Positions 21,505-54,440 of a stretch of DNA of 57,663 nt are shown in pieces. Under the pieces are notes generated by a model. That model had not been told where the DNA came from. It ran no database searches and saw nothing but the letters and a program-made list of their open reading frames with translations. Position 1 is the first letter of the stretch. Every line of letters starts with the position of its first letter. Origin of the DNA: an uncultured Clostridia bacterium (GTDB lineage Bacteria > Bacillota > Clostridia > Christensenellales > Borkfalkiaceae); the NCBI GenBank assembly GCA_944328495.1, contig CALVHR010000012.1:1-57663 (forward strand), given 5' to 3'. The translations under genes were made by a program, and so were the position numbers.

Positions 21505-21521
21505 ACCCTCTCCCCCGTCTT

Positions 21522-36613: not shown

Positions 36614-36664
36614 AAAAAAACAGCCGGAGCGCGCATCGCCTTTGTGCGCTCCGGCTGTTTTTTT
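36614..36664 (-). terminator. Strong terminator of the LacI-controlled operon
   Basis: Arms AAAAAAACAGCCGGAGCGC (36614-36632) and the complementary strand ending GCTCCGGCTGTTTTTTT (36648-36664). U-runs on both strands make it bidirectional. It lies 14 bases past the stop of the last small ORF. Confidence 0.85.
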
Positions 36665-36677: not shown

Positions 36678-36830
36678 TTATACGACTTTGACCGTTACGG
36701 GAGCCCCGTACAATCTGTAACAAATATCGTTGCCCTCTTCACGATTTAACTTAACATCCACGTACGGCAAAAAGCGAATATCACCATCCCCTTTTTCATT
36801 ATACTGCTCCTCTGTCTTAACGATAACCAT
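36678..36830 (-). CDS. 50-residue protein at operon end, function unknown
   Basis: An ORF of 50 aa beginning MVIVKTEEQYNEKGDGD and ending RLYGAPVTVKVV, with an alternating charged/hydrophobic pattern suggesting a small beta-rich fold. Its ATG lies inside the last codons of the kinase gene (14-base overlap), and its stop is 14 bases before the operon terminator, so it is the last cistron. The local ribosome site is weak; coupling to the kinase is likely. I recognise no family. Confidence 0.5.
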   Translation of the reverse strand: MVIVKTEEQYNEKGDGDIRFLPYVDVKLNREEGNDICYRLYGAPVTVKVV

Positions 36831-37755
36831 AATTACTGCACATAATCGCTTCCGCCTCCTCCTTTGTCGGAATCGATACGGCCGCTCCCTTTCTGGAAAC
36901 TGTTATCGCCGAACAGGCAGAAGCAAACTCCAAAGAATCTTCAATATTTTCTCCCAGCGCTTTTTTCAGAGCAAGTGCCCCTATGAACGTATCCCCCGCG
37001 GATGTCGTATCCACCGCATTTACTTTTTTAGCCGCAATCTTGATAAACTTTTTTCCGTTATAATAGCAAGAGCCTTTTGCGCCCAGTGTTATCACCGCTT
37101 CTTTTACTCCCTCGGTTATAAAAAAACGCCCCGCATTTAACAAATCTTTGTCCGTTTTTAAGGGTATGCCGGAAATGATTTCCGTTTCCGTTTCGTTCAG
37201 CACAAGAAGATCCACGTTTTTTAAAAAGTCAGGCCCGATTTTTATTGCCGGCGCAGGATTTAAAACCGTGTACATTTTTTTGCGCTTGGCGAAAGCGAGC
37301 CCCTCTTTTACGGCATCGGCGCTGATTTCCAACTGCGACAAGAATATGTCGCCTTCTGCGGCATTTTGATCCAAAACATCCACATAATCGCAGAATCGGA
37401 CCAAATCGTTTGCTCCGCCGTCAACTATGAGGTAATTATCCTTTCTGCATTCATCCAAAACAATAAAACAAACACCGCTGTTGCTGTTCTCATGCGTTTT
37501 CAGCATAGAAACATCGACGCCGAAATTTTGCAAAGAATTTTTTAACTGCGAGCCGAACAGATCTTTGCCGATCGCGCCGAGAAACATGACCTTCCGAGCG
37601 CCGAGTTTTTTGCAAGCGACAGCCTGATTTGCACCTTTTCCGCCCTGCGTTGTCATGAAACCGTGCCCCTTTAAAGACTCCCCAAGCTTGGGCAGCCTTT
37701 TTGCAGAAATCACAAGATCGACGTTGATGCTCCCGAAAACAAAAATTTTTTGCAT
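36817..37755 (-). CDS. Ribokinase-family (PfkB) sugar kinase
   Basis: A 312-aa PfkB kinase: GSINVDLV at the N-terminus, the GGKGANQA sugar-binding motif (38-45), NETE (187-190, Mg/phosphate site) and DTTSAGDTF (249-257) with catalytic Asp255. The usual DTTGAGD has Ser in place of Gly. It phosphorylates a free pentose or ketopentose with ATP. With the FucI-type isomerase and RPE gene in the same operon, D-ribulose to D-ribulose-5-P is the proposed reaction; ribose would be the default for the family. Confidence 0.85.
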   Translation of the reverse strand: MQKIFVFGSINVDLVISAKRLPKLGESLKGHGFMTTQGGKGANQAVACKKLGARKVMFLGAIGKDLFGSQLKNSLQNFGVDVSMLKTHENSNSGVCFIVLDECRKDNYLIVDGGANDLVRFCDYVDVLDQNAAEGDIFLSQLEISADAVKEGLAFAKRKKMYTVLNPAPAIKIGPDFLKNVDLLVLNETETEIISGIPLKTDKDLLNAGRFFITEGVKEAVITLGAKGSCYYNGKKFIKIAAKKVNAVDTTSAGDTFIGALALKKALGENIEDSLEFASACSAITVSRKGAAVSIPTKEEAEAIMCSNYGYR

Positions 37756-37756
37756 T

Positions 37757-38425
37757 TTATTTTATACACTCTCTCAGTTTTATCAAATTATCGTTCAATG
37801 TTCCGTTTTTACTGAAAATACTGCTTGTCCCTGCGACAAAGATATCTGCGCCGTTTTCACGCATGATTTTTCCGATTTCAAAACTGACGGATCCGTCCGT
37901 CTCGATCTGCACATCACCATATCCGCGGTCATTGAGAAAGCTTCGCGCATCCTTAATTTTTTGCAATGTCTGCGGCACGATTTTTTGCCCGGCAAACCCC
38001 GGATTTACCGTCATGATAAGAACAAAATCGATATCCGGCAGCAGATATTCAATGGAACAAAGCGGAGTCGCAGGATTTAAAGCGACCCCCGCCAACGCGC
38101 CCTTTTCGCGTATTTTGGAAATACATCTTTGAATATGCGGCGTACTTTCAAAGTGGACGGATACCATGTCCCCGCTTCGGATATCAAACCAATCCAGTTT
38201 ATCCTGCGGATTTTCCACCATAAAATGATAATCGAAAGGAATATCCGTCAGGCTCCTCACTTGCCGCATGATACAATCGCTCAATGTAAAATTCGGCACG
38301 AAATGTCCGTCCATGACATCGATATGCAGATATTCTACTTTATTTTTCTCAAATATATCGAGTGTTTCCCGCAATCTTGTAAAATCGGCACACATCATCG
38401 ACGGAGCGACTTTGCCCTTATCCAT
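37757..38425 (-). CDS. rpe: Ribulose-phosphate 3-epimerase family protein
   Basis: A 222-aa TIM barrel of normal RPE length. Metal and catalytic residues are all present: His34 and Asp36 (EYLHIDVMDGHFVPN), His67 (FDYHFMVENP) and Asp177 (QIETDGSV). MTVNPGFAGQ matches the phosphate/loop motif. It interconverts D-ribulose-5-P and D-xylulose-5-P; allulose-6-phosphate epimerases share the same motifs, so the exact substrate is open. It lies 1 base upstream of the kinase gene. Confidence 0.85.
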   Translation of the reverse strand: MDKGKVAPSMMCADFTRLRETLDIFEKNKVEYLHIDVMDGHFVPNFTLSDCIMRQVRSLTDIPFDYHFMVENPQDKLDWFDIRSGDMVSVHFESTPHIQRCISKIREKGALAGVALNPATPLCSIEYLLPDIDFVLIMTVNPGFAGQKIVPQTLQKIKDARSFLNDRGYGDVQIETDGSVSFEIGKIMRENGADIFVAGTSSIFSKNGTLNDNLIKLRECIK

Positions 38426-38440
38426 AATTGCCCTCCCCGT

Positions 38441-40201
38441 TTATTTATAAAGCGGCCCGAAATCGCGGCAAGCCATAAAATCTGCACTTTGGCTTCCCTG
38501 ATCGCCATAAGAAGACCATACATGCGGACGAAAGATACGTTCGGCGGGAACATTATGTAAACTCACGGGAATACGCAGCATGCTTGCGAGCGTGATCGCC
38601 CTGTCGCCGATATGACCGTAAGTAAAACAGCTGTGATTTGCGCCCCAGCCCGCCATCACGCTGTAAACGTCTTTGCAGCCGCCTTTATCGATCAAATTCG
38701 GCACAAAAAAAGTAGACGGCCAAGCCCTGTCAGTACGCTTTTCAATAACATCGGTGATTTCTGCCGGCAGATCTACCGTGTATCCTTCCACGATCTGCAA
38801 CACAGGGCCAAGTTTGTTCACCCTGTTCAGCCGCATCATTGTGACGGGCATCTCCCGCCTCGTTACAAAATGACTGGAAAATCCACCCCCTTTAAAATAT
38901 TCGAGATTTGCAGGATAATAAATCACTTTATCCAGAGTAGCACGAATGTCTTTTTCTGTGACCTTCCACCACGGTTTCATTTCTGCCTTTCCGTTTTCGA
39001 CCATTTCGCCGGCCGCATCCAGAGCGGCAGAACCGCTGTTATTGAGATGTATGAACCCGTTCTTCGCCCTGCCTGTCAATGTTTTGCCCGTAACGCGCTT
39101 GACAGCTTCCGGGCTCCAATAAGTTCGCACGTCCGCAAAGGCGCTGGCCTGATTCGTCAGAAGCTTTTGAAACAGCATGGTAAGCCCATTCAGTGTATCG
39201 TTTTCAGTGGCAATGATATACGGCTCCCTTTTCCCGTTCCAATCAAAGGAAGAATTTATGATACTTTCGGCAAAATCGGCGTTCGGCATATAATCCGTCC
39301 ACTGTCGCTGCCCCTGAAAACCGCCGCAAATCGCCCCCTTACCCAGACTCTCTTCATAATACCCCTTCTCTCTCAACTTTGGATTGCCCTGAAAAATATC
39401 TTTCAGGATCACCGCCATTTTTACAGAGTATTCCCAGTCAGTATCCAGCTGTTCGCGGCTGTGACGCAAATCGGGCGGATTGTATACCTCTTCACCCTCG
39501 GTTATATTTTCTCTGACCCACGTCATCGCCTTTTGATATTCTTCTTCCGCATAGATCTTCTTCTGGATACGCCTGTTTATCTCAGACATATCCATCCATT
39601 CGGCACGCATGCCCAAATACTGCTGCAACAGCATCGGATCGAGCATGCTGCCCGGAATACCCATCGAGACGTTTCCGATCGCAATGTAACTGCCGTTTTT
39701 CATTTGTGCAACTGCCGTAGCTGCCCGCGCAAACAACAGAATTTTTTCTTCCACGTCTTCGGGAATAGAGTCGTCGTTCAAGTCCTTTACGTCTTTTCCG
39801 TAAATCGAAAACGCAGGCAGTCCCCTTTCCGCATAAGCGCTCATGGCGCAGGCGAGATATACTGCTCCGGGTCGCTCCGTGCCGTTGAACCCCCAAACCG
39901 CCTTTAAAGTATGCGGATTCATGTCAATGGTTTCGGTACCGAAACAAAAGATAGGCGTCACCGATATCGTAGCAGTCACTCCTTCTGCGGCAAACTTCTC
40001 GTCTACCCTCACCGCTTCCGCCGCACACGTTATCGTCGTATCCGGAATCAGGCACTGCACCGGAGTACCGTCAGAATAAAACACATTGGATTCAATGAGC
40101 TTTTTCACGGCTTTTGCCATGCTGAACGCTTTGCCCTCCGTTTTATATCTTACGCTGTCGCGACCATCATTGAGCGGCCTTATACCGATTTTTCCTTTCA
40201 T
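38441..40201 (-). CDS. fucI: L-fucose/D-arabinose isomerase
   Basis: A 586-aa protein aligning over its whole length with FucI (E. coli enzyme 591 aa): IGIRP at the start, GTETIDM, WGFNGTERPGAVYLA, FQGQRQWTDYMPN, SSFDWNG, FADVRTYWSPEA and SVMAGWGANH. The Mn ligands are present: Glu333, Asp357, His523. The enzyme converts L-fucose to L-fuculose and also D-arabinose to D-ribulose. No fuculokinase or fuculose-phosphate aldolase is present here, while a ribokinase-type kinase and an RPE are, which favours D-arabinose as substrate. GGAG precedes the start. Confidence 0.92.
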   Translation of the reverse strand: MKGKIGIRPLNDGRDSVRYKTEGKAFSMAKAVKKLIESNVFYSDGTPVQCLIPDTTITCAAEAVRVDEKFAAEGVTATISVTPIFCFGTETIDMNPHTLKAVWGFNGTERPGAVYLACAMSAYAERGLPAFSIYGKDVKDLNDDSIPEDVEEKILLFARAATAVAQMKNGSYIAIGNVSMGIPGSMLDPMLLQQYLGMRAEWMDMSEINRRIQKKIYAEEEYQKAMTWVRENITEGEEVYNPPDLRHSREQLDTDWEYSVKMAVILKDIFQGNPKLREKGYYEESLGKGAICGGFQGQRQWTDYMPNADFAESIINSSFDWNGKREPYIIATENDTLNGLTMLFQKLLTNQASAFADVRTYWSPEAVKRVTGKTLTGRAKNGFIHLNNSGSAALDAAGEMVENGKAEMKPWWKVTEKDIRATLDKVIYYPANLEYFKGGGFSSHFVTRREMPVTMMRLNRVNKLGPVLQIVEGYTVDLPAEITDVIEKRTDRAWPSTFFVPNLIDKGGCKDVYSVMAGWGANHSCFTYGHIGDRAITLASMLRIPVSLHNVPAERIFRPHVWSSYGDQGSQSADFMACRDFGPLYK

Positions 40202-40213
40202 ATACGTTTTCTC

Positions 40214-41296
40214 CTATCTGTCAAAAAGCTTTTCTCTGGGCGGCAACGGTTTGAATTTTACGTGCGGTTCACTCTGATACCAGAATGCTACGGACGCAAC
40301 GTCTTCGCTCAAATGTTTGTATTTTTTACGATCGGTTTGCCAGCCGATTGTATCCACGGTAACCTTGATATCCTTTTCAAATCCTATACAGTCCTCAATG
40401 TGGAACCTGTACATGCTCAGCTTTTTCGGGCTCTCTCCGTTTCCGACAAATACTGCGGGGACACCGATATAAGGCGTGCTGTAAACAACTTCACTGCTTC
40501 CGGGTATTACACCGTACGCTCCGAAATTCCATGCCCCGCCAAAGTAGTCCTCCGTTCCGTTATCGCATATCGTGGGATACTTGTCGTCTCCGTCGATAAA
40601 GAATTTAACTTCTCCTTCCCCCCACCAACCGCTGTTGAGAACAGTCCATGCAAGGTATGTCCCTACATACACGCCCCTTCCTTGTACATTGTCCAAAATG
40701 ACATGGCGCGGATACTCTTCGCTCGTAACGCTCCTGCGATATACCGCGTGAAAATAACACGCGTCATCCGAAATCGGTTCCGCATGATATAAAACCTTAT
40801 ATGCCACGATCTCACTGAACGTATCCCCGCGGTTTTCGAGTTCGATCCTCGCTCTTTTTCGAAACGGCATCGACCAGTAAGCGTTCAGCCCTCGATACGG
40901 CGCAACCACGACCGGCAGGGAATTCACGGTGTGCGGCACTCCGTCATGCCCCATACAGAAAAATGCTCCCAGCGGACACTCTACCGACGGTTCTGTTTCT
41001 TCGTCCCAGAAAATCCGTATGATCATTTCCGAAAATCGCTGTCTGTCGGTAGTGATAAATATATTTTTTATCGTTCCGCTGCCAGAAATGTCCGCAATGT
41101 TAAATTTTTCGCCGGGTGCCATGCGTTTGAAAGGGTTCACCTTCCAGCCTTCACCATGCGAATATTTCCCCCAAAAAGCGTCTTTCGGCAGATCTGAAGG
41201 CTTTGCCGTCGCTCCCTTTCCCTTTTCCCCCGTAGGGTTTTCGGCTGATATCATTCTCGTAACAATACCGCCCTTGTAAGCAAGATCATCAAGCAT
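40214..41296 (-). CDS. GH172 (DUF2961) glycoside hydrolase
   Basis: A 360-aa protein with no signal peptide, so cytoplasmic. DUF2961 signatures: GSGTIKNIFIT, CPLGAFFCMGHDG, NAYWSMPFRKRARIELENRG, GWWGEGEVKFFIDGD and GTEDYFGGAW. The acidic pair Glu227/Glu229 and Glu249 lie at the positions expected of the acid/base and nucleophile. GH172 contains difructose-dianhydride enzymes and exo-alpha-D-arabinofuranosidases; the downstream D-arabinose-type pathway favours the latter. Cytoplasmic location suggests it cleaves imported oligosaccharides. Confidence 0.88.
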   Translation of the reverse strand: MLDDLAYKGGIVTRMISAENPTGEKGKGATAKPSDLPKDAFWGKYSHGEGWKVNPFKRMAPGEKFNIADISGSGTIKNIFITTDRQRFSEMIIRIFWDEETEPSVECPLGAFFCMGHDGVPHTVNSLPVVVAPYRGLNAYWSMPFRKRARIELENRGDTFSEIVAYKVLYHAEPISDDACYFHAVYRRSVTSEEYPRHVILDNVQGRGVYVGTYLAWTVLNSGWWGEGEVKFFIDGDDKYPTICDNGTEDYFGGAWNFGAYGVIPGSSEVVYSTPYIGVPAVFVGNGESPKKLSMYRFHIEDCIGFEKDIKVTVDTIGWQTDRKKYKHLSEDVASVAFWYQSEPHVKFKPLPPREKLFDR

Positions 41297-41308
41297 ATAT
41301 CCTCTCCT

Positions 41309-42181
41309 TTATTTCAAACCTGAAATGGCTATACCTTCCACCAATTTCTTCTGAAAGATGAAAAAAAGTATCAGCGGCGGGATCATCGCAATAATACAGG
41401 ACGCGATCACGACGCCATAGTCATGTGAATTTACCGACTTTAACATATACAGTATTTGCGATACCTGCGTCAGCGTTCCTTCGTTCTCGGTTATCACCAG
41501 TGTGGGCCAAATATATGAATTCCAAGAGCCCAAAAACGCGCCAACACCTATGATGATCATGGGCGTTACCGATAAAGGAACAAAAATTGAAATGAGTATC
41601 TTCAAACGGCTCGCCCCGTCAAGCATTGCCGCTTCCTCAACGCTGTCCGGAATATTTAAAAAATACTGTCGGAAAAAAAAGATGCTGTAAGAATTGGCCA
41701 TGCCCGGAACAAATAACACGAAAATTGTGTTGATCATATTCAGTTCGGAAACGACCTTGATAGACGTCAGCTGAATGGCAATGCCCGGAACAAACATGAA
41801 AAACAGCAAATAGGTGAAAATTACGTTCTTAAATTTGAAATTAAAACGGGCAAAACCATACGCGGCAAGCATGTTGATCAATATGGAAAAGAAACAGTTA
41901 CAAGATGCTACCACGAAAGTGGAAAGCAGAGCATTTAAAAACCTTCCCCCGTTTACGTCCACCTTGAATACTTCTTGAAAATTATCCCAGCAGGGCTTTT
42001 CCGGAAACCACGAGATACTTCCTCCCACTTCCGACATTTTAAAAACTTCCCTGCCGTCTTTCAAGGAATAGGGCAAAGACCATATCAACGGGAAGAGGAA
42101 CAGCGCGATCACCAAAACGGCTATGACAATATAAACCGCTTCTTTTATCTTTTTTTTATAATGCGTGCAAAATCCTTTCAT
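41309..42181 (-). CDS. Sugar ABC transporter permease, MalG/CUT1 family
   Basis: A 290-aa permease with six helices. SLPYSLKDGREVFKM follows the first helix, and the EAA loop reads EAAMLDGASRLKILISIFVP. It starts 1 base after the stop of the partner permease, with GGAGG upstream. It belongs to the LacI-controlled transporter with binding protein 51044-52393. Confidence 0.93.
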   Translation of the reverse strand: MKGFCTHYKKKIKEAVYIVIAVLVIALFLFPLIWSLPYSLKDGREVFKMSEVGGSISWFPEKPCWDNFQEVFKVDVNGGRFLNALLSTFVVASCNCFFSILINMLAAYGFARFNFKFKNVIFTYLLFFMFVPGIAIQLTSIKVVSELNMINTIFVLFVPGMANSYSIFFFRQYFLNIPDSVEEAAMLDGASRLKILISIFVPLSVTPMIIIGVGAFLGSWNSYIWPTLVITENEGTLTQVSQILYMLKSVNSHDYGVVIASCIIAMIPPLILFFIFQKKLVEGIAISGLK

Positions 42182-42182
42182 T

Positions 42183-43094
42183 TCAAGCGTCCTCCGACTT
42201 TTTCGATTGCAGAAAGAAAAATGCCAGTGAATTGAGCGTCGCTATCACGACGAGAATGATAAGAGAACCGGCAATCGAAACATTTCGCGGCGCACCGCTG
42301 CCGTCATTAAAAAGCCTGTACAGATACAGCACGGGAGTCAGCGTTTTATTTGCCGGACCGCCGCCCGTGATCATCAACGGCAAATCGAGCATTTGCAGTT
42401 TACCTGTCAACTGTGTGGACAGCAAAAAAATGAAAGTGTTTTTAAGATTCGGCATCGTAATATTGAATATCACGCGGAAAACCCCGGCGCCGTCGATCGC
42501 GGCCGCCTCGTAATATTCACGCGGAATGCTGAGCATGCCTGCAAGCATGATCAATGTACTGCCGCCCAACCCCAACCATAGATCGCTGACGATTATGCTT
42601 ACGTACGGCCAAATTCCGTCCACCCCGAAAACGATCGGATCCAAATCGGCAATGATCATCAAATTCGCAAAAAGCCCGCCTCTGTGGTTTGTAAGGAGGT
42701 GATAAATAATCGATACGATGACACTCGAAACGAGGGAAGGAAGGTAGACGATCACCTTTAACGCACCCGAAAACCCGCGCGTGGATTTTTTGACGAGCTG
42801 CGCAAGCAAAAAGGACAAAAACAATTGCAAAGCCACTCCCACGACAGCCATACCGATCACATTGCCGAACGACTGCAGGAAAACAGGCGCCTTAAAAATA
42901 TAATCAAAATTGGAAAGTCCTACCCAATCCCCCGTGTTGTAATCGCGAAAAGATCGCAAAACCGCCATGACCAGCGGAATACAGGCAAACACAGTAAGCA
43001 TCAAAACCGCCGGCAAAACGTACAAATAGCCCAAATTATCCTGATTCCTGTATTTTCTGCCGTTTTTTTGGGTCACGCTCCGTTCTTTTATCAT
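42183..43094 (-). CDS. Sugar ABC transporter permease, MalF/CUT1 family
   Basis: A 303-aa permease; EAA loop EAAAIDGAGVFRVIFNITMP. Two ATGs are available: 43100 would put GGGA directly against the codon, while 43094 leaves six bases, so 43094 is preferred. A 13-base-pair stem-loop lies just upstream of the ribosome site. Confidence 0.92.
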   Translation of the reverse strand: MIKERSVTQKNGRKYRNQDNLGYLYVLPAVLMLTVFACIPLVMAVLRSFRDYNTGDWVGLSNFDYIFKAPVFLQSFGNVIGMAVVGVALQLFLSFLLAQLVKKSTRGFSGALKVIVYLPSLVSSVIVSIIYHLLTNHRGGLFANLMIIADLDPIVFGVDGIWPYVSIIVSDLWLGLGGSTLIMLAGMLSIPREYYEAAAIDGAGVFRVIFNITMPNLKNTFIFLLSTQLTGKLQMLDLPLMITGGGPANKTLTPVLYLYRLFNDGSGAPRNVSIAGSLIILVVIATLNSLAFFFLQSKKSEDA

Positions 43095-43107
43095 GTTCAT
43101 TCCCTTT

Positions 43108-43140
43108 TGTCATCGGAGGGAAGCATGCCCTCCGATGACA
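43108..43140 (-). promoter_or_regulatory. Intercistronic stem-loop before the permease pair
   Basis: A perfect 13-base stem, TGTCATCGGAGGG with CCCTCCGATGACA, and a 7-base loop, in the 54-base gap between the surface-protein gene and the permeases. No U-run follows on the minus strand (AAAAGGGA), so a processing or stability element is favoured over a terminator. Confidence 0.5.
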
Positions 43141-43148
43141 ACACACAA

Positions 43149-46100: not shown

Positions 46101-46241
46101 CGCAATGAGATTTTCTCCCACTTTGACGAAATCATCCTGCGCTTTTGCCGAAGTCGGTATAAGACACAACCCTGCGATACAGAGCGTTAAGAGAATCAAT
46201 AAACATCCCAAAATGATTTGTCTGAATTTACTTTGTGCCAT
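43149..46241 (-). CDS. CBM4/9-type multi-module surface protein with Cys C-terminal anchor
   Basis: A 1030-aa exported protein; signal peptide to about residue 33 (SAKA|QDDF). Four jelly-roll carbohydrate-binding-like modules, each introduced by NLIADGSFE, LVLDGGFE, LLKNAGFE or LLVDGGFE and ending with a GYHIDAVCLYE/GYQIDDLSVKK-type strand. Ig-like segments lie at ~600-740 and ~910-990. The tail is DEGGGGCNSE, a hydrophobic helix, then VRKKAK. Its ATG overlaps the upstream stop as TAATG, so it is coupled to the 820-aa relative. It probably holds polysaccharide at the cell surface for the GH and transporter genes. Confidence 0.78.
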   Translation of the reverse strand: MAQSKFRQIILGCLLILLTLCIAGLCLIPTSAKAQDDFVKVGENLIADGSFENGAVLGSPIRWGVVSGQDLGAPYPGMGIDDSAITGYSEPFEGTANMFWAGAADYLSAGLKMQMYQDVTLKENTEYELSFYIKKWNAGNVISPLKYGFADKENTFSEEYVCEGTGSYRQVVMQFSSENATSLRILFELETKEFAEVGNVGYHIDAVCLYELGRYEELVLDGGFENQELIDDTSAPWTGTGSEIRSDGDAYEGQDCAYIAASEGGSAVLNQSVTVESKKLYRLSFYVKKVGTVSPLAYGVKPIHSDAFISSLTSEDIGEVYEKVSLAFYSGENTSLKIAIETEGSAQISGGYCIDSVSLQEINMGEEVSLTDGNELLKNAGFEDSMAIIKQPFSSVADRGWVSVQGNATANVGVDGGGNLSNSGNNNIWLASANAQIVPGTDIGVYQDITVEPNTWYEFSYFAKKWGSGNICAPIILAVMDPVQPMGTFIDSQSFGAITGLYEQYVWHFNSGERETVRVILYLSAISFAEAGFYETGYQVDDLSVKKVAETENIIFIAENQPAENEMLEFTLYADLSNGMLKNITAEDFYTIISDDESVFKIVDNKIVAAGKGTASITLQIDMFGYSKQFTIPAITVAEGETFGLRGVSVKLGGEVNTESYVEVDYTLTRNDGTEIAADYIDVYTDDPEVLNIYSRLGKYFALARKNGQANIYVVAHYNGSAVIGSSLVSIDGDNLLVDGGFEDAEVREWKIDKTSDGGHDFVVSGDYARTGRGNLFMIAPSVNPLITPDSYSYIYQDVVIGEADYYTFSAYINKFQNGGTAVIGAVRLEDGEESRENTYTTADSSAGAGGYQKISHIFSATPGTYRVYLRLTGDPMQGMGIQIDDCSLTKTIFVEAVELKINGEAELPMNDLVDFEVYLVYENGEKERIMSGYDISCEPKNVVSITGSFIIAKAEGTAEITVSYKFLDSVLTDTVQMTVVPENIPSDSDGDTDEGGGGCNSEISAVGGAIGFAVAAAVALALFVRKKAK

Positions 46242-48703
46242 TATTTCGCTCCTTTCCTTTTCTTTATGAAAATCACTGCTGTCCCCAGCAAAGCAAAACA
46301 ACCAATTCCGACAGGACCTATGCTTGCATTACAGCCGGAACTGTTGTCCGAATCATCCCCCGCAGGATCCTCAACCTGTCCGTCGCCGACGGGGGGGTGC
46401 ACTTCCATTTCTTCGAACACTGCCGTGATAACGCTGTCCTGCGTAAGTATAAAGGTATTTCCCTCGATCGCTTTGCCGTTGACGCAGATCTCTTTGAGTT
46501 CGTACCCTTCCGCAGGCGTTGCGGTCACGGTTATCTCCGTGCCGGCGGCAAGGCTGTTCCCTTCCGGAGAAATGCTTATTTGCCCGTTGACGATTTCCCC
46601 GACCGTTACGGCGTATTGGATCTTTTCGAACACTGCCGTGATAACGCTGTCCTGTGTAAGTATAAAGGTATTTCCCTCGATCACTTTGCCGTTGACGCAG
46701 ATCTCTTTGAGTTCGTACCCTTCCGCAGGCGTTGCGGTCACGGTTATCTCCGTGCCGGCGGCAAGGCTGTTCCCTTCCGGAGAAATGCTTATTTGCCCGT
46801 TGACGATTTCCCCGACCGTTACGGCGTATTGGATCTTTTCGAACACTGCCGTGATAACGCTGTCCTCCGCAAGCACAAAGGTATTTCCCTCGATCGCTTT
46901 GCCGTTGACGCAGACCTCTTTGAGTTCGTACCCTTCCGCAGGCGCGGCGGTCACGGTTATCTCCGTGCCTTCAACAAAACTGTTCCCTTCCGGAAAAATA
47001 CTTATTTGCCCGTTGACGATCTCCCCGACCGTTACGGCGTACTCACTCGCCTCTTTGAGGGAAATTTCATCCACATGGAAACCCGTATCATACCCTCCGT
47101 TTGTCTCTTTCGGCAACGAATTATTGTAGATAAATATCCTTATTTTCGTCAAATCGCCCGTATTGAAGATATAAGTTAATTTTTGATAATTCTGTGTTTG
47201 CCCGAACGTATATGTACGGGAATCTACCGCTTCATCCGGCGTTTCCGATGAAGAATCGGAGTATCCATAGACCACGGGGGCTACAATGTTGTTCATATCC
47301 CATTTCTTGATATTGAACGTAAACTTATAATATGTATTCGGCTTTACGGCCACATCCTGGTAGATTCCGAGTTTTGTATTTTCAGCAAACGAACCGACCG
47401 AACATATAAACGCATTTGCCGTTCCTTCATACGCCGAAATATTGCCGGGAAATGTATCCACGCCGACACCCGTTGCCGCAAACGATCTCCATGACGTATC
47501 CGCAGAGAGAGTACGCGGAGAAGCCTCAAATCCGCCGTCGGTTATGTATTCCATATCTTCTTTTTCAAAGAGCGAAATCAGATCGAAATGGAATCCCGTG
47601 CCGTATCCGTCCGCTTCTGCTTTCGATATGCAGTCGGTATACAAAAATACCCTTATTTCCGTAAGTTCGGCATTATAAAAGTCAAATTTCACTTCTTGGA
47701 AAGTTCCCAACGGGTTTTGATAGATAATTTCTTTAACCGCCGCAAAGGGATCAGACGCATTCGGATCTGCATAGCCTAAGTGAATGGCTCCCACCTTATT
47801 CCCTTCTGCCCATTTTTTGATGTGTGCAGAAAGCTGATACGTCTTTCCCGCCTGTACTGTAACGTCCTGATAAATGCCGTTTTTCTTCCCTGCCAAATTG
47901 TCGTTGGATGCTTCCATCCATACAGAGCCGACCCCTTCATAAGACGCCGTACCCGCTCTGTCCCAGCCGAGCACGGCATCGGGGAACATAGTCCACGGAG
48001 AAGAATTTTGGTCGATTGTCTCCTGCGTTTCAAAGGACGCATCGCTCAAAAGATTTGTCCGATTCACTTTTTCCAAAGAAACTTCGTCGAGATGAAAGCC
48101 GATTTCACCCGCAACGTTGACATCCGCGGTTAGAAAAGAAAACAAAATCCTGACATTGGATAAATTCCCGCTGTTGAAATTTAAACGAAACGGCTTATAT
48201 GTTCCGCCAAGCGCGCCGCTTTCCACTGTTTGGCGCATTGTATAATCAAAAGTATCTTCTGCGGCAATACCATAATCAAACGCGGGAGTGTTGTTTCCAT
48301 CCGCCCATTTTTTCAGCCAAAACGACAGCATATATTCGGTGTTTTTTTCCACTGCAATATCTTGATACAGTTTTATCGGCGTCCCCGTCTGCAAATAACT
48401 GCCCGCTCCCGCCATAAATACGTTTGCAGTGCCTTGTTTCGAATTTACGTTTGCTTCCCAATTATCGACTCCGATACCCGGCGCCATTGCCCCGACATCC
48501 AAAGCTGTAACAGCCTGCCAGGCATACTCCTCTCCCAAAGATGAACTTTGCTCAAAAGAACCGTCCGCTACGAGATTTTTTCCGCTTGTACAATACTGCT
48601 CGGCATTTACAGATGTTGTATGCGATATCATGAATAATACACCGCACGAAAATACCGCCGCCAATAGAATTACCCAAAGATTGCGAATCTTACTTTTTAT
48701 CAT
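46241..48703 (-). CDS. CBM4/9-type surface protein with InlB-like triple repeat and Cys anchor
   Basis: An 820-aa exported protein; signal peptide ending SVNA|EQY. Three jelly-roll modules start with NLVADGSFE, NLLSDASFE and EYITDGGFE. Three consecutive 71-residue repeats (YAVTVGEIVNGQISI...EGYELKEICVNG...VITAVFEKI) of the InlB/Flg_new stem type follow at ~553-765. The tail is SSGCNAS, hydrophobic helix, KKRKGAK. The repeats act as a stalk between the binding modules and the membrane anchor. GGGGGGAAG lies upstream of the start. Confidence 0.8.
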   Translation of the reverse strand: MIKSKIRNLWVILLAAVFSCGVLFMISHTTSVNAEQYCTSGKNLVADGSFEQSSSLGEEYAWQAVTALDVGAMAPGIGVDNWEANVNSKQGTANVFMAGAGSYLQTGTPIKLYQDIAVEKNTEYMLSFWLKKWADGNNTPAFDYGIAAEDTFDYTMRQTVESGALGGTYKPFRLNFNSGNLSNVRILFSFLTADVNVAGEIGFHLDEVSLEKVNRTNLLSDASFETQETIDQNSSPWTMFPDAVLGWDRAGTASYEGVGSVWMEASNDNLAGKKNGIYQDVTVQAGKTYQLSAHIKKWAEGNKVGAIHLGYADPNASDPFAAVKEIIYQNPLGTFQEVKFDFYNAELTEIRVFLYTDCISKAEADGYGTGFHFDLISLFEKEDMEYITDGGFEASPRTLSADTSWRSFAATGVGVDTFPGNISAYEGTANAFICSVGSFAENTKLGIYQDVAVKPNTYYKFTFNIKKWDMNNIVAPVVYGYSDSSSETPDEAVDSRTYTFGQTQNYQKLTYIFNTGDLTKIRIFIYNNSLPKETNGGYDTGFHVDEISLKEASEYAVTVGEIVNGQISIFPEGNSFVEGTEITVTAAPAEGYELKEVCVNGKAIEGNTFVLAEDSVITAVFEKIQYAVTVGEIVNGQISISPEGNSLAAGTEITVTATPAEGYELKEICVNGKVIEGNTFILTQDSVITAVFEKIQYAVTVGEIVNGQISISPEGNSLAAGTEITVTATPAEGYELKEICVNGKAIEGNTFILTQDSVITAVFEEMEVHPPVGDGQVEDPAGDDSDNSSGCNASIGPVGIGCFALLGTAVIFIKKRKGAK
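46412..47050. repeat. Three tandem 213-bp coding repeats
   Basis: Unit starts at 46412, 46625 and 46838, exactly 213 bases apart. Units 1 and 2 are almost identical in DNA; unit 3 differs at scattered sites. They encode the 71-residue stalk repeats of the 820-aa protein, so copy-number change would keep the frame. Confidence 0.9.
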
Positions 48704-48748
48704 TTTCTTCCCCCCTTAATAAAGATTTTTTGTTTGGTTCTGCCGCTG

Positions 48749-51031
48749 TTATGCGTCAAACGTGAGCATGACAACCTTCCTGGACGGCAGCGGCAGATTC
48801 AATTCCGCAATGCCGTTATTTATTACAGCCGAATATCCGCTCTGATCGGACGCGATCACACCCGAATCTACGCCATAAAGACTGCCTGTATTTAGATCAA
48901 AATCGAAAGCAATGTCATTTTCAGTGATATTGCACAGGAACAGAGCGATCTTTCCGTTATATTGAAAGGCGGATACGACCACACTGTCGACAGAAGTCGT
49001 CCCCGAATAATCCTGTCCGCGAATATTCGCCGCATCCATACGATAAACGTAATAATCGTATTCTGTTTTGCCGGTATTGAGCGTCGGTGCCGGCATCATT
49101 TCACCCCAAACGAGGAAATCTTTTCCGTACGTCATTCTTGCCGCCGCCAGCTCGCCCGCAAACGCAAGCATGTCCTCATCATAATATTCGGGTAACGGAT
49201 AGCCGCGCGTGCTTTTCAGCGTATTTTCGTAATTGTATTCCGGAATGCCGCCGTTGAGCGCCGTAAACGCCATCGTATGGTAATACGCTCCCCCCATACT
49301 CGTTTCGGGGATCATATAGCCATCCAGCCTTACGCCGGTATATTCCTTGTAGACATATTCAAACAGGTGAACCTTTTCGGCACTTCCGTTTTCCACGAGG
49401 TTTAAAATCCGCATTGCTTCCATCTGCGAAAGCGCCTGCGCATTTGCCCGCGTCTGATAAAAATCAATATACGGAATATATTGCTCGCTGATAAGTTCTT
49501 GGCCGTAAACGCCGCCCTTGCTCCGCGCATAATCGGAAAAAATCTTCATCTGTGCCTTCGATTCCCCGACAATGTTGATCCTGTTTCCGTGCGCATGATT
49601 TTTATCGAAACACTGTTTGGGCAGGCCCGCCGCAAAACCTACGTCGTGATAGATCCCTCCGAAATTTGCCTGTTCCACATAGATTTGATCTTTGGACAGC
49701 TGCGTGAGCGTATACTCGTCGCAAGAAGGGCAAATTTCATAATATACTTCCTCCCAGTTGTAATAATAATACTCCGACTCATCGTAGTTGATCATAGCGT
49801 TGTCTATAAACGTCTGATTATTGTTATACTGAGATTTGAGATAAAAAGACGGAAATTCAAACATGATATAGCGATCGCCGTATGCGTCCATCATGTTGTA
49901 AAAATTAGTCGTTTTGGCGTTTTGCAGCCACGTCTGATACACCCTTTCGTCTGCGTTGCCGCCGGCGATCGTCGTACCGCTGAGCGTAATGAACAAATAT
50001 TCTCCGGGTATTTCGGACTTTATCAATTCATACGCCCGCTCGGTACCGGTAGTGTTGTCATTGAGAAAACAAAAATTGGTAAGAGTGGTGTTTTCATAAA
50101 ACTCTTTGTTGATGTCGCTTCTGTTTACGTTTTTGCCCTTTGCGCACCAGGGCTGTTGTATTGCCCATTCCTTATATCTGTCTGCGGCTTCGTACCAAGT
50201 CCCGCGGGTGAGGTTTGCGATGACCGTGTCATAACCGAATTGAATGTCTTTTCCGTCAAAATTTTGCGCAAAGTGCCATACGGAAGCGCGCAAATCACCG
50301 TCTTGCCCTGTAAAAGTAAAACTCTTCATCCCGTCCGAACTGTCCTCGGTCTGCATATAAAATCCGCCTTCGTCTTGGGAATAATACGCCTGAAATTGCA
50401 TGGGATATTCCCATCCGGAAGGGTAAAAACCGTCCGTTCTGCCGATCCCCTGATAATTCCCGTTGAAATTCTCGACGGGATTATGGAATACATACCCCGT
50501 TACGAAAGGAGATAAGAAGCAATCCTTCTCTTTGCTGTCTAACGACTTGATCCCGTTTATGATCGGATATTCCACAGCATATACGGGCTTTCCCGCAGAA
50601 TTGCCGCCAATATGCAAGTTGTTGAATATCAATTCCCCGCTATCTTTGGCGAGAGAAACCTCCGCCGACGCAGTATGCCCCGTATCAAAGCCCCATGTAA
50701 AACACAATTTAATCAAATCTGCCGAGTCTTCCGCAACTTCATAGGAAAAAGTCTTGGGAGATTCATATTGCTCGGCCGCGTTGCCGATATATGTCATGCG
50801 AATGACCGCCATATCTTCTTCCGCACCGTCTTTCGTCAGATACAGATCGGCTTCTTTGTTATAAAGTTCGCTGATTCCGCCCGTCTGCTTATTTATGACA
50901 GCGCGCATTTTCCCGTTTTCCAATATGATCCGCTGATCGATTTTAAGCGACAAATCACTTTTCCCTCCCGAACAGCCAAATAAAGTGATACTCATACATA
51001 AAGCAAGAATGATCGATATGATTTTTTTCAC
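48749..51031 (-). CDS. DUF6259-like glycosidase lipoprotein
   Basis: A 760-aa lipoprotein, lipobox LFGC with Cys20, starting with GTG after AGGAG. The N-terminal ~270 residues are a beta-sandwich (ILENGKMRAVINKQTGGISELY). The central part is a TIM barrel with GIYHDVGFAAGLPKQCFD, KNHAHGNR, SKAQMKIFSDYARSKGGVYGQELISEQYIPYIDFYQ, and a small C-terminal beta domain follows. This matches the DUF6259 group of presumed glycoside hydrolases; catalytic residues are not established. As an exported protein of the D-arabinose-type operon it is a candidate for the polymer- or oligosaccharide-cleaving step. Confidence 0.65.
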   Translation of the reverse strand: MKKIISIILALCMSITLFGCSGGKSDLSLKIDQRIILENGKMRAVINKQTGGISELYNKEADLYLTKDGAEEDMAVIRMTYIGNAAEQYESPKTFSYEVAEDSADLIKLCFTWGFDTGHTASAEVSLAKDSGELIFNNLHIGGNSAGKPVYAVEYPIINGIKSLDSKEKDCFLSPFVTGYVFHNPVENFNGNYQGIGRTDGFYPSGWEYPMQFQAYYSQDEGGFYMQTEDSSDGMKSFTFTGQDGDLRASVWHFAQNFDGKDIQFGYDTVIANLTRGTWYEAADRYKEWAIQQPWCAKGKNVNRSDINKEFYENTTLTNFCFLNDNTTGTERAYELIKSEIPGEYLFITLSGTTIAGGNADERVYQTWLQNAKTTNFYNMMDAYGDRYIMFEFPSFYLKSQYNNNQTFIDNAMINYDESEYYYYNWEEVYYEICPSCDEYTLTQLSKDQIYVEQANFGGIYHDVGFAAGLPKQCFDKNHAHGNRINIVGESKAQMKIFSDYARSKGGVYGQELISEQYIPYIDFYQTRANAQALSQMEAMRILNLVENGSAEKVHLFEYVYKEYTGVRLDGYMIPETSMGGAYYHTMAFTALNGGIPEYNYENTLKSTRGYPLPEYYDEDMLAFAGELAAARMTYGKDFLVWGEMMPAPTLNTGKTEYDYYVYRMDAANIRGQDYSGTTSVDSVVVSAFQYNGKIALFLCNITENDIAFDFDLNTGSLYGVDSGVIASDQSGYSAVINNGIAELNLPLPSRKVVMLTFDA

Positions 51032-51043
51032 AAAACTTTCTCC

Positions 51044-52393
51044 TTACAAATAAGGATTGGGACCATACGAATCCCTCGACATCACTGTGTTTATCGTGGA
51101 TTTCGCAGTCGTCAGCGCACCGGCGTAGACGCTTTCAAAATCCTTGTTGGTGTTTAAAATACACGTTTCAAACATCGCTGCAACCGCATAAGACAGATCG
51201 AACGGGAAACGCACTTCGGGCACGGCATAACTTGCAACCTTTGTTACAGTCTCCGCCCATTCCGGCTTTATATCGTACTCCGCCGTTTCCATATAATTCA
51301 GCACACTTTCCCTGACAGGAACTTTCCCCATATGCTCCACCTTAAAATATTCGGCGCTTCTTGCAACGTCATCCGCAGCCATCCATTCGATAAATTTCCA
51401 AGCCGCATCTTGCTTGGCTTGCGATGACTGTGCCGAAATGCCAAACGTCCAACCGCCGTTGGTTGCGGTGCATTTTGTATCGTCCCCGTCCTTCGTGGGA
51501 ATCGTGCTGATACCGATGAATTCGACTGCCTCCGGATACTGTTCGTACAGCAGAGAAATGTTCCAGCTGCCGCCCCAGCACATGATCGCAGTTTCATCTG
51601 CCAAGGAAATTACATTGTCGCCGTATCCGTTGGTCGTTAACGCAGCAGGCGCCGCCCATCCGTTCTTTATACAGGTATAAAAGAATTGTGCTATTTCTTT
51701 GAAGCCCGCCTCATCGATTCGACTCTCCATCCAATCGTCTGAAACCACAAACCCGCCCGTCATATTTTTTTGCAATCCTACCGTTGTCCACGACAGATCC
51801 GCCTGTCCTACGGGCAGCGACAGACAATATCTTCCCCTGCTCAACGTAGGCGCAATTTTTTCACACACGTCGTATAATTCGGCAAACGTCTTCGGCGCGG
51901 AATCATAGCCTGCTTTTTTAAGTACGTCTGTTCGATAATAGAACAATGTGGAAGGTTCTGTATACCATGGATACGCGTAATGTTCGTCTTCAATCTCTAC
52001 CATCTTCCACACGTCGGCCGAAATGTCAGACTTCTGCTCTTCCGTCAAATATTTATCAATGGAAATAATATTGTTCGCTTCCTTTTCCCTGACCAGCGTG
52101 TTGTATGATATTAAGTAAATATCGGGTGAAGTTCCGTTTTCTCTGCCCGTGGTGATTGCTTGCCAATAAAGCTGATCGTCATAGTAAATTTTGAGTTCCA
52201 CATAAATTTCGTCTTGCGATTCGTTGAATTCATCGATCCTGTCTTCGATATACCCGTTTGCCCAGCTCTCGAAATCCTTCGTATAAATTTTGATCTTGGT
52301 TACATCCGGATCGGTATTTGCTTTCGAGCCGCATCCTGCCGCGAACGTTAAAATAAAGGCTATCACAAGCAATATGCTAAGAAATTTTTTCAT
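51044..52393 (-). CDS. Extracellular sugar-binding lipoprotein of ABC transporter
   Basis: A 449-aa family 1 binding lipoprotein; lipobox FAAGC, Cys21. VTKIKIYTKDFESWANGYIEDRIDEFN opens the first lobe (given in part: KIKIYTKDFESW); HYAYPWYTEPSTLFYYRTD and ETAIMCWGGSWNISLL are typical CUT1 ligand-site segments. It supplies the two permeases at 41309-43094, although four genes lie between. GGAG precedes the start. Confidence 0.92.
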   Translation of the reverse strand: MKKFLSILLVIAFILTFAAGCGSKANTDPDVTKIKIYTKDFESWANGYIEDRIDEFNESQDEIYVELKIYYDDQLYWQAITTGRENGTSPDIYLISYNTLVREKEANNIISIDKYLTEEQKSDISADVWKMVEIEDEHYAYPWYTEPSTLFYYRTDVLKKAGYDSAPKTFAELYDVCEKIAPTLSRGRYCLSLPVGQADLSWTTVGLQKNMTGGFVVSDDWMESRIDEAGFKEIAQFFYTCIKNGWAAPAALTTNGYGDNVISLADETAIMCWGGSWNISLLYEQYPEAVEFIGISTIPTKDGDDTKCTATNGGWTFGISAQSSQAKQDAAWKFIEWMAADDVARSAEYFKVEHMGKVPVRESVLNYMETAEYDIKPEWAETVTKVASYAVPEVRFPFDLSYAVAAMFETCILNTNKDFESVYAGALTTAKSTINTVMSRDSYGPNPYL

Positions 52394-52405
52394 TTTTAAA
52401 CTCCT

Positions 52406-53293
52406 TTATAATTTTGATATTTTCTTGAAAAGATCTTCCATAAGTACATCTCTGTCTATGCTGTAAACGTAATCGACCGTCTTTGTTTCGTCAAACGCAA
52501 AATTTCTTTCATCGTTCAAGAACGGACGTTTTTCCTTTTTTACGCGCATAAATTTTCCGTTATCATCCAATACATAAGCAACTGCCGTAACATCCCAAAA
52601 TACTACGCTCCACGGACTGTCCTCACGCTTGGAATGACTTTTAAAAAATTTTGTTTCTTCGATCAGCCAATCGCTTAAACTGTTTTTACCTCCCAACCAA
52701 TACTTCATCTCAGGCTCCGTCGACAAAAATTCGGAAACAACGCCCATGCAGGGAAGCAACGTAAGCTTCACCCCGCTTTTTAAAATGATGTTGGAGGCAA
52801 CAATATCTCCCTGCAGATTGAACTCATTTTGATCGATCCACGAATAAGCATGACAGCCCAGCCATACAACTTCGATCTTTTCTGCTATCTGCGGAGCCAG
52901 CATAAGCGCCGAAGCAACATTTGTGATCGCCGCAATCTCGATAACGTAAAGAGGATCCTCCCTCGTATGCTCCGACGCCTCTTTGATCAGATGCGTTACG
53001 GCAGGCGACGGTACCGCTTGCATGTCTTTTCCCATAAAACGCCTTGCGCCTTTAAATACCAATGATTTGTATTTTTCCTTCCCTGCCAATTTCAAAAGCT
53101 TGATACATGCTTCATAACTTTTATCGATGCTTTCATCGACGGTGTTCGCTCTGTAATTCAAAAACGGTGCGATGTATATTCCCTTAATATTCACCTCTTC
53201 TTCCGACCCGAGCAAATATGAAAGCGCCCACAAATCGTCACATTCGTTATACACATCGCTGTCAATCACCACATCCTTACGTCTGGTTTGCAT
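52406..53293 (-). CDS. Nucleoside-hydrolase-like protein (IUNH superfamily)
   Basis: A 295-aa cytoplasmic protein. The metal-binding N-terminus reads VIDSDVYNECDDLWALSYLL, with Asp11, Asp13, Asp19 and Asp20; the standard nucleoside hydrolase motif DTDPGxDD is two residues shorter. This is the DxDxxNExDD subclass, whose substrates are poorly known. ITNVASALMLAPQIAEKIEVVWLG is a conserved family segment. As first gene of an operon for an arabino-type sugar it may hydrolyse a pentofuranoside rather than a nucleoside. GGAG lies upstream. Confidence 0.75.
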   Translation of the reverse strand: MQTRRKDVVIDSDVYNECDDLWALSYLLGSEEEVNIKGIYIAPFLNYRANTVDESIDKSYEACIKLLKLAGKEKYKSLVFKGARRFMGKDMQAVPSPAVTHLIKEASEHTREDPLYVIEIAAITNVASALMLAPQIAEKIEVVWLGCHAYSWIDQNEFNLQGDIVASNIILKSGVKLTLLPCMGVVSEFLSTEPEMKYWLGGKNSLSDWLIEETKFFKSHSKREDSPWSVVFWDVTAVAYVLDDNGKFMRVKKEKRPFLNDERNFAFDETKTVDYVYSIDRDVLMEDLFKKISKL

Positions 53294-53325
53294 TTATTCT
53301 CCTTTACAATAGGTTATTTTTTCTA

Positions 53326-53373
53326 CCTTTTTGATAAAAATGAAACGTTTCATTTTTAAAAAAATCAAAAAGG
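53326..53373. promoter_or_regulatory. LacI operator before the operon, nested in a larger inverted repeat
   Basis: TGAAACGTTTCA (53341-53352) is a perfect 12-base palindrome of LacI-family type, inside the 106-base gap between lacI and its target operon. Outer arms CCTTTTTGAT (53326-53335) and ATCAAAAAGG (53364-53373) could also form a weak terminator hairpin for lacI. I could not place -35/-10 boxes for the operon with confidence. Confidence 0.75.
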
Positions 53374-53398
53374 CAATTTTCCTTACCTTTCTAAATGA

Positions 53399-54397
53399 TC
53401 ATATAGTTGCAATCGTTTGCCCGTGAACAAGTTTACTATTGAGTATAAATACTTGCTTTTTCAAACTCGGCTCGGCAAGCAACTCAAATAGCCGCTCCAC
53501 TGTTTTTTGCGCTATTTCTGCCATCGGCTGATTCACGATCGTTAATTTCGGGCGATATAAACTCGTGATCATTATATCGTCAAAACCGACGATCGATATG
53601 GTTTTGGGAACAGAAATATTCAGTTCATTGAGCAGATACACACACCCCACGGTGCTTATATAGTTGGCAGCAAAAATTGCCGTTACCTTCTTTTCACTGA
53701 GAATTTCTTTCCCCACTTTATAAGCATAATCGATGCTTTGATTGATCTTATATATTTTCGCATTCTCTTCGCCGATGTTATTATCGTCAAAAGCCCTTTT
53801 AAATCCCTTTAAACGACAGTTGGAGGTATACGCATTATTCCCGTCTACGATGATTGCAATATGCCTGTGTCCCTTTTTTATCACACAATCGGTTACCTCG
53901 TAACTGATCTGCTCGTTATTGGTCAAAATAAAGTCACGATCCACACCTTCCACATAGTTGTCTAAAAATATGACAGGCACATCCACCTCTTCCAGCAATT
54001 TATAGTCTTCCCTTCTGTCCGAAATAGGGAAAATTATCAACGCATCCACTCGGTGAGAAATGAACCAAGATATGCTCTTTTGCTCTTTTTGAATGTCATA
54101 ACTGCTCTCCTTAATAATTGTCGCATATCCTTTCCTGTAAAGTTGTTCTTCTATATCAAATATCATCCGCGAATAAAACAAATTATCCAGGCGCGATACC
54201 AATATGCCCACCGTCTTTGTTTTATTCGTTATAAGCCCCCTCGCGTATTCATCCACATGGTAATTTAATTTTTGAATGGCATCCGCAAGTAGTATCCTGT
54301 TTTTTTCCTTTATAGCGCCGCCGTTTAAGTACTTCGACACCGTTCCCGAGGACAATCCCGTCAAATCGCAAATGTCATGTATCGTTGCTTTTTTCAT
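53399..54397 (-). CDS. LacI-family transcriptional repressor
   Basis: A 332-aa regulator. HTH ATIHDICDLTGLSSGTVSKYLNGG (residues ~3-26), hinge YHVDEYARGLITNKTKTVGILV, then the periplasmic-binding-type sensor (AIIVDGNNAYTSNCRLKGF; ISIVGFDDIMITSLYRPKLT; VNQPMAEIAQKTVERL). It is upstream of, and on the same strand as, the operon beginning at 53293 and is separated from it by the operator. A TTG 12 bases upstream is a poorer start than ATG 54397. It is predicted to repress both itself and the operon. Confidence 0.92.
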   Translation of the reverse strand: MKKATIHDICDLTGLSSGTVSKYLNGGAIKEKNRILLADAIQKLNYHVDEYARGLITNKTKTVGILVSRLDNLFYSRMIFDIEEQLYRKGYATIIKESSYDIQKEQKSISWFISHRVDALIIFPISDRREDYKLLEEVDVPVIFLDNYVEGVDRDFILTNNEQISYEVTDCVIKKGHRHIAIIVDGNNAYTSNCRLKGFKRAFDDNNIGEENAKIYKINQSIDYAYKVGKEILSEKKVTAIFAANYISTVGCVYLLNELNISVPKTISIVGFDDIMITSLYRPKLTIVNQPMAEIAQKTVERLFELLAEPSLKKQVFILNSKLVHGQTIATI

Positions 54398-54412
54398 GAA
54401 TTTTACCAAATA

Positions 54413-54424
54413 TGAAACGATTCA
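54413..54424. promoter_or_regulatory. LacI operator in the lacI leader (autoregulation)
   Basis: TGAAACGATTCA, one mismatch from the perfect palindrome at 53341. It lies between the predicted +1 (~54434) and the start codon, where a bound repressor would block transcription. Confidence 0.65.
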
Positions 54425-54440
54425 TTTTTTTCTTGATTTT

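Follow-up and report, generated by a model that had tools for sequence, protein, structure and literature searches.

Organization of the locus

The window analysed here, a 57,663-nt stretch of contig CALVHR010000012.1 (C12; assembly GCA_944328495.1) from an uncultured Clostridia bacterium of the family Borkfalkiaceae, carries on its minus strand a LacI-linked operon (36817-54409) of 11 genes plus its own lacI. The genes follow one another in the order LacI, nucleoside-hydrolase-like (NH-like) protein, solute-binding protein (SBP), DUF6259 lipoprotein, two carbohydrate-binding module (CBM) surface proteins, two ATP-binding cassette (ABC) permeases, GH172 enzyme, FucI isomerase, ribulose-5-phosphate 3-epimerase (RPE) and PfkB kinase, with intergenic gaps of -1 to 48 bases from the NH-like gene to PfkB. 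We consider it likely that this operon, under LacI control, allows the cell to import and degrade alpha-D-arabinofuranosyl oligosaccharides. The host genome is 2.1 Mb in size and its assembly is 91% complete; hence, the gene absences reported below are not absolute. Genomes, contigs and loci are distinguished, where necessary, by the prefixes G, C and L.

A preliminary description of this DNA had placed the named genes in a single operon under LacI control. Each of them was found on the minus strand with profile matches, and lacI itself (53399..54409, Pfam Peripla_BP_3 6.1e-25) lies just beyond the part which that description covered. Its predicted product is an RbsR/PurR-like LacI-family repressor, the helix-turn-helix domain of which scores 26.0 bits, slightly below the cut-off of 27, and which also gives a sub-cut-off match to the NCBIfam RbsR-like model. 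Two operator-like sites, each a perfect match to ATGAAWCGTTTCAT, were detected: ATGAATCGTTTCAT (54412..54425) ahead of lacI and downstream of a promoter-like TTGACA-17-TATTAT site (54469-54441, from a consensus scan only), and ATGAAACGTTTCAT (53340..53353) in the stretch that separates lacI from the first structural gene. These are the only two perfect matches to ATGAAWCGTTTCAT in the genome, and the related locus of a congener (G404, L105) likewise carries a matching lacI-side operator (at 2311) and ATGAAACGTTTCGT, which differs by one base, between lacI and fucI (at 3405). Since both perfect operators lie at the operon and the congener has such a pair, the regulator appears to be devoted mainly to this locus, presumably as its repressor. 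At the other end, a terminator-like hairpin with a 20-pair stem and T runs (36616..36662, consensus scan only), 154 bases beyond the PfkB stop codon, would close the operon. A 50-codon frame (36678-36830, minus strand) overlaps the end of PfkB ahead of this hairpin.

GH172, FucI, RPE and the kinase

The GH172 (DUF2961) gene (40214..41296, minus strand; PF11175 3.5e-81, 272.6 bits, cut-off 27) is predicted to encode an exo-alpha-D-arabinofuranosidase, and no signal peptide was seen in its sequence. Both acidic residues reported initially are the catalytic pair, E227 and E249 aligning with E270 and E291 of alphaFFase1, whose catalytic roles are described in PMC8605356 (here and below, papers are cited for the portions of their text that were accessible). 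The two positions hold the same residue in 162/162 aligned GH172 sequences, and the family's E-D pair is retained as well. Among solved structures, the best match by far was to the exo-alpha-D-arabinofuranosidase ExoMA1 (8ic8, E value 1.9e-82), followed by 8ah3 (6.6e-37; locus 02479, DgGH172c according to PMC10115798), BACUNI_00161 (1.1e-35) and alphaFFase1 (3e-30). In a tree of 162 sequences, a split with support of 0.987 places the operon enzyme and ExoMA1 in a group of 148, broad and varied in gene context, with alphaFFase1, DgGH172c, BACUNI_00161 and 11 others on the opposite side. The tree was drawn rooted on alphaFFase1, although only the unrooted 148-versus-14 split is used; ORFs of 250 aa or fewer were excluded (L063 is thus missing), duplicates were removed and the solved-structure rows are partial segments. 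According to PMC10509167, ExoMA1 and DgGH172a form a clade separate from alphaFFase1.

Beyond the genus, the closest GH172 relatives belong to Chloroflexi, Verrucomicrobia, Paenibacillaceae and Evansella. Among near relatives of the host the gene is patchy, with a match in 11/101 genomes, three of them in this genus including the host itself. A full FucI gene lies within the fetched stretch at four GH172 loci outside this genome (L048, L105, L109 and L184) of 147, 56 of which were covered by less than 15 kb; about 0.11 would be expected from a rough base rate that takes 20 kb out of 2 Mb and treats the loci of two collections as a single sampling frame. A fifth locus, L191, has a distant FucI-like match (24%). 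Conversely, in a FucI-anchored survey of a 398-genome phylum sample, GH172 was found in 1/30 other FucI neighbourhoods (L218), together with an AraB-type kinase.

The host has a second GH172 gene (C2:74706-75713, minus strand; L087:9686-10750), whose product keeps both catalytic glutamates. It lies in the cell-division (dcw) cluster, 45 bases behind ftsZ and with a Mur ligase gene downstream of it. No other GH172 locus among those scanned had an FtsZ match, while L111 had a Mur-ligase match. L087 is omitted from the count of 147 loci above and included in the count of 178 used below.

FucI (38441..40201, minus strand; NF008220 896 bits, cut-off 775) is a putative D-arabinose (L-fucose) isomerase, present as a single match in its own genome. 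The NCBIfam name is L-fucose isomerase, and the TIGR01089 score of 826 bits is below the cut-off of 850; the best PDB match is the D-arabinose isomerase of B. pallidus (3a9r, 2.2e-239). Its sequence does not tell the substrate, because FucI genes beside FucK/FucA, an AraB-type kinase or GH172 interleave in a tree, which we therefore abandoned as a guide. RPE (37757..38425, minus strand; TIGR01163 217.9 bits, cut-off 212.6) is encoded by the second copy in the genome, the other rpe being on C18. The metal ligands attributed to both enzymes in the preliminary description are in place, namely E333, D357 and H523 in the full-length FucI when aligned to E. coli FucI, and H34, D36, H67 and D177 in RPE as read off the alignment.

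No FucA or FucK was found in this genome, in keeping with their reported absence: there were 0 Aldolase_II matches (12/14 control genomes matched), and the sole FGGY kinase is the glycerol kinase GlpK, so that none was seen for L-fuculose, L-ribulose or D-xylulose. With no class-II aldolase and only a glycerol kinase of the FGGY family, the L-fucose route is missing, and since no FGGY pentulose kinase was found, the pathway most evidently continues with the PfkB kinase and RPE encoded next to FucI. The ribokinase-type PfkB (36817..37755, minus strand; TIGR02152 300.4 bits, cut-off 299.65) is accordingly proposed as a D-ribulokinase. We know of no PfkB-type D-ribulokinase; the accessible text of PMC12307932 names FGGY-family D-ribulokinases and AraB and does not contain the term 'PfkB'. 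The complete pathway claimed at first thus stands for FucI and RPE, which are present with their residues, whereas its D-ribulokinase step would depend on the presumed activity of PfkB. As a whole, the gene set fits a route from D-arabinose through D-ribulose and D-ribulose-5-phosphate to D-xylulose-5-phosphate.

The importer and its relatives

The importer comprises a lipoprotein SBP (51044..52393; SBP_bac_8 3.4e-26) and the permeases PermF (42183..43100; BPD_transp_1 1.3e-11) and PermG (41309..42181; BPD_transp_1 2e-14), all on the minus strand, and is of the UgpA/E type. When related transporters of the fetched loci were placed in trees (some rows were overlapping fetches of the same gene, and duplicates were dropped), PermG, PermF and the SBP grouped, at support of 0.998, 1.0 and 0.999, respectively, with those of the same five-genome set, i.e. 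this genome, the congener, G221, Paenibacillus sp. PL91 and Bacillus sp. Marseille-Q3570. The importer loci of the last three each encode GH172 together with a GH183 endo-D-arabinanase. GH183 occurs in 5/178 anchored loci (L076, L113, L179, L181 and L184), and three of these belong to the four loci whose importer falls in this clade (Fisher p 4e-5); within the 24 loci with a related importer, it is present in 3/4 of this clade versus 0/20 of the remainder (p 0.002). These counts leave out the window's own locus, where the importer is present and GH183 absent, and the p-values are guides only, as the pattern was seen before the test and the loci were picked by GH172 or FucI. The loci delimit a family of importers whose occurrence follows that of GH183, and the importer is, to judge from these trees, the strongest evidence for a D-arabinose-type substrate.

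The congener keeps LacI-FucI-RPE-PfkB and SBP-DUF6259-PermF-PermG-GH172 in a different gene order, at identities of 45% (LacI), 64% (FucI), 56% (RPE), 46% (PfkB), 59% (GH172), 32% (SBP), 36% (DUF6259) and 48 and 49% (permeases). Neither the NH-like gene nor either CBM protein has a match at the congener locus, where PfkB and the SBP are separated by a 962-aa CBM_X2-domain protein and GH172 is followed by a GH78-like gene. In the Paenibacillus PL91 locus (L184/L240), LacI, FucI, GH172, the same-clade importer and DUF6259 recur, with three GH183 and two GH172 genes and with an AraB-type FGGY kinase in place of PfkB and RPE (order: GH172, LacI, FucI, AraB-type kinase, GH172, GH183, SBP, PermF, PermG, DUF6259, GH183, dehydrogenase, GH183). 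The G221 locus (L076:1-14415) resembles that of the window in LacI, a ribokinase-type PfkB, GH172 and the importer, and differs in its two GH172 genes, GH3, GH116 and GH183 and in the lack of a FucI or RPE match in two overlapping 20-kb stretches (order: LacI, PfkB, GH172, GH3, GH172, GH116, GH183, SBP, PermF, PermG). The Marseille-Q3570 locus reads ribokinase, SBP, PermF, PermG, Gfo/Idh, DUF6259, sulfatase, LacI, GH42, GH172, GH183. Such a food source had been called unusual for a Firmicute, which is an overstatement, given that Paenibacillus and Bacillus strains and G221, of the same class as the host, carry fuller versions of the locus. In G476, a genome of the same order, a GH183-like frame lies directly upstream of GH172 (L113:1-2161).

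Surface proteins and the NH-like protein

The DUF6259 lipoprotein (48749..51031, minus strand; PF19773 3e-11), a proposed extracellular glycosidase, has a lipobox (FGC) visible in its sequence. Homologues lie in the conserved core of the congener locus (L105:10989-13532, with a lipobox and a reading frame broken through either an assembly error or decay), in L048 as the gene that immediately follows FucI, and in PL91 (L240), where PermG and GH183 flank it. L181, the Marseille-Q3570 locus, lends weaker support than PL91, because sulfatase, LacI and GH42 genes separate DUF6259 from GH172-GH183. No signal sequence was visible by eye in the PL91, L181 and L048 homologues, and in the 398-genome sample relatives at E 1e-30 came from the host genome only. 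A profile search of the PDB found nothing beyond a faint similarity of the N-terminus to alpha-mannosidase (E 0.3), one homologue scores 6.8e-6 against Glyco_hydro_38C, and a structure prediction from two sequences was unusable (mean pLDDT, the predictor's own confidence score, 29.9). On the strength of its genomic company, DUF6259 is a candidate unrecognized D-arabinan enzyme, and it may act as such in the operon.

CBM protein b (46241..48703; CBM_4_9-like and InlB-type repeats in Pfam) and CBM protein a (43149..~46241; CBM_4_9 4.2e-12 and CBM_4_9-like repeats), both on the minus strand, are predicted membrane-anchored surface proteins; a longer version of protein a with a TTG start at 46301 is probably an overcall. 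Protein b has a signal-like N-terminus and a C-terminal GCN-hydrophobic-KKRK stretch. Both proteins end with GCN(A/S) followed by a hydrophobic segment and a tail of lysine/arginine, which may serve as a cysteine-type anchor.

The NH-like protein (52406..53293, minus strand; IU_nuc_hydro 5.4e-20) keeps DSDVYNECDD and EFN. Taking DxDxxxDD and a catalytic His as the nucleoside hydrolase motif, the former stretch is two residues longer than the Ca-binding motif and a Trp stands at the expected position of the His. No homologue was found in the other loci compared, the congener locus included, the sole match being the gene itself.

Proposed route and alternative readings

The sequences show which genes are present, that active-site residues are intact and operator-like sites exist, that the congener conserves the core and where the importer groups; from this we infer the substrate of the operon and the specificity of its kinase. 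In the route envisaged, the SBP and the two permeases would import oligosaccharides, energized by an ATPase whose gene presumably lies elsewhere, and the cytosolic GH172 would free D-arabinose, which FucI would turn into D-ribulose. The PfkB kinase would convert this to D-ribulose-5-phosphate and the dedicated RPE would yield D-xylulose-5-phosphate, feeding the pentose phosphate pathway. At the surface, the CBM proteins and the DUF6259 lipoprotein may bind the glycan, and perhaps cut it or strip its side groups. A D-arabinofuranoside substrate, as put forward in the preliminary description, is favoured by the matches to ExoMA1 and 3a9r, by the failure to find FucK and FucA and by an importer shared with loci encoding GH183 and GH172.

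Several observations weigh against this interpretation. The GH172 tree sorts poorly by activity: placement among characterized clades, proposed earlier as a check, sets the operon enzyme with ExoMA1 against alphaFFase1, but DgGH172c, which is active on alpha-D-arabinofuranosides (PMC10115798), sits on the alphaFFase1 side. The tree distances to ExoMA1 and alphaFFase1 are 2.26 and 2.66, respectively, and alphaFFase1 itself also cuts alpha-D-arabinofuranosides (PMC8605356). Active-site position 256, a W in the operon enzyme as in the four solved GH172 enzymes, was dropped as a substrate marker, as it showed no link to GH183 or FucI (5 W:6 other among linked loci, 77:69 among unlinked, p 0.76; the L109 enzyme, which stands in the tree as L098, was counted as linked). 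As 143/147 GH172 loci lack a full FucI in the fetched stretch, GH172 alone does not fix the substrate. FucI was likewise not seen in the fetched stretches of G221 and Marseille-Q3570, both GH183 loci with a ribokinase-type kinase. PfkB clears the ribokinase model by less than 1 bit, and although it would have no FGGY rival as the pentulose kinase, other PfkB kinases were not searched for. Places resembling ATGAAWCGTTTCAT with one mismatch occur at C4:30918 and C12:6621. Finally, neither the host nor the congener has a match to GH183 (DUF4185; PL91 and Marseille-Q3570 matched as controls) or to GH116 (PF04685; PL91 and 3/14 control genomes matched).

Because neither genome shows GH183 or GH116, intact D-arabinan is not shown to be the food, and the polymer named in the preliminary description gives way to D-arabinofuranosyl oligosaccharides as the more likely source. 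The complete capture-import-cleave system described there is also reduced, as no extracellular D-arabinanase was identified. Either the oligosaccharides are released by neighbouring organisms, or the step outside the cell falls to the DUF6259 lipoprotein. A bolder version, which we regard as rather doubtful, is that DUF6259 is an unrecognized D-arabinan glycoside hydrolase family, which in this genus would be an exported lipoprotein replacing the GH183/GH116 step and in Paenibacillus and Bacillus would be cytosolic, working alongside GH172 and GH183. On this view, the operon would amount to a minimal system for D-arabinan that has a novel enzyme at the surface and relies on a D-ribulokinase of the PfkB type.

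Among the alternatives, the use of alpha-D-fructofuranosides (difructose anhydride), with GH172 freeing fructose and PfkB acting as a fructokinase, is improbable. The GH172 family does include alphaFFase1 (PMC8605356), and the nearest clade beyond the genus, to the detriment of the D-arabinofuranoside interpretation, includes Evansella tamaricis, whose gene adjoins that of an FGGY kinase and has a GH32 fructosidase gene in its vicinity. FucI and RPE would have no role on fructose, however; GH172 matches ExoMA1 far better, no GH32 match was found among the operon proteins scanned, the kinase scores 300 bits as a ribokinase versus 81 as a fructokinase and the importer is common to GH183 loci. 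Still less probable is nucleoside or riboside salvage, in which the NH-like protein would free D-ribose, PfkB would be a plain ribokinase and FucI and RPE would take minor arabinosides. This would suit the first position of the NH-like gene and the ribokinase and RbsR-like scores of PfkB and LacI, but the NH-like gene was not found at the congener locus and its protein has Trp for the catalytic His that we would expect; moreover, GH172 and the UgpA/E-type importer would be unexplained, and ribose needs no RPE. FucI families accept L-fucose, as the NCBIfam label reflects, yet the use of L-fucose or a beta-L-fucofuranoside is very improbable, given that RPE would have no place in such a route, that the congener retains the same set and that the genome yielded neither FucK nor FucA, the enzymes expected downstream. 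Least probable of all is a D-altrose/D-allulose route in which FucI, an enzyme type that acts on D-altrose, would make D-psicose for phosphorylation by PfkB and the epimerase would give fructose-6-phosphate: the epimerase also matches the D-allulose-6-phosphate model, but at 195.6 bits, below the cut-off of 271, whereas the rpe model was passed, and we know of no GH172 enzymes for D-altrofuranosides.

Neighbouring features of the window

Elsewhere in the window, a second sugar operon (13907-23537) encodes DHDPS-like, CE2/GDSL, SIS, Gfo/Idh and GH67N/DUF4838 proteins, and two proteins of 1620 and 945 aa (30149-35011 and 23583-26420) lie beside an ABC importer and have no Pfam match. Upstream of the operon, a Bro-N domain is fused to a Fic domain (55029-55913).

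Relation to known D-arabinan systems

The characteristic glycan of mycobacteria and related bacteria is D-arabinan, and D-arabinose is the mirror-image sugar of mycobacterial cell walls. In the accessible literature, the use of D-arabinan has been worked out in Bacteroidota and Actinobacteria, with the enzyme families noted as more widely spread. Loci with GH172, GH183, GH116, an isomerase and a kinase are described for Microbacterium, and D-arabinan enzymes also for mycobacteria, phages and other microbes (PMC10509167). The polysaccharide utilization locus (PUL) of Microbacterium arabinogalactanolyticum (PMC10509167) resembles the operon in its ABC importer, cytosolic GH172 (ExoMA1) and an isomerase and kinase leading to D-ribulose-5-phosphate; it has a secreted GH183 and a cytosolic GH116, neither of which was seen in the window's genome, whereas the operon adds a dedicated RPE, a PfkB kinase, DUF6259, the CBM surface proteins and the NH-like protein. 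When Dysgonomonas gadei grows on D-arabinan, a predicted fucose isomerase is the most abundant carbohydrate-active enzyme, and it comes from a PUL with three GH172 genes (PMC10115798). This Bacteroidota locus, PUL42, is thus like the operon in combining GH172 with such an isomerase and differs in its three GH172 genes and its GH183 enzymes (PMC10115798). The alphaFFase1 of Bifidobacterium dentium (7v1v; PMC8605356) shares the fold family and both catalytic glutamates; it is a difructose anhydride enzyme, matches the operon GH172 at E 3e-30 and falls on the other side of the supported split. In searches to which subscription journals were mostly out of reach, no paper was found on D-arabinan in Bacillota or on DUF6259.

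The loci found here would extend whole utilization loci to Paenibacillus, Bacillus and the class of G221, and they nominate DUF6259 and the PfkB kinase for testing. If the D-arabinofuranoside interpretation is true, it would offer a route to enzymes that cut mycobacterial arabinan and would show a shared niche.

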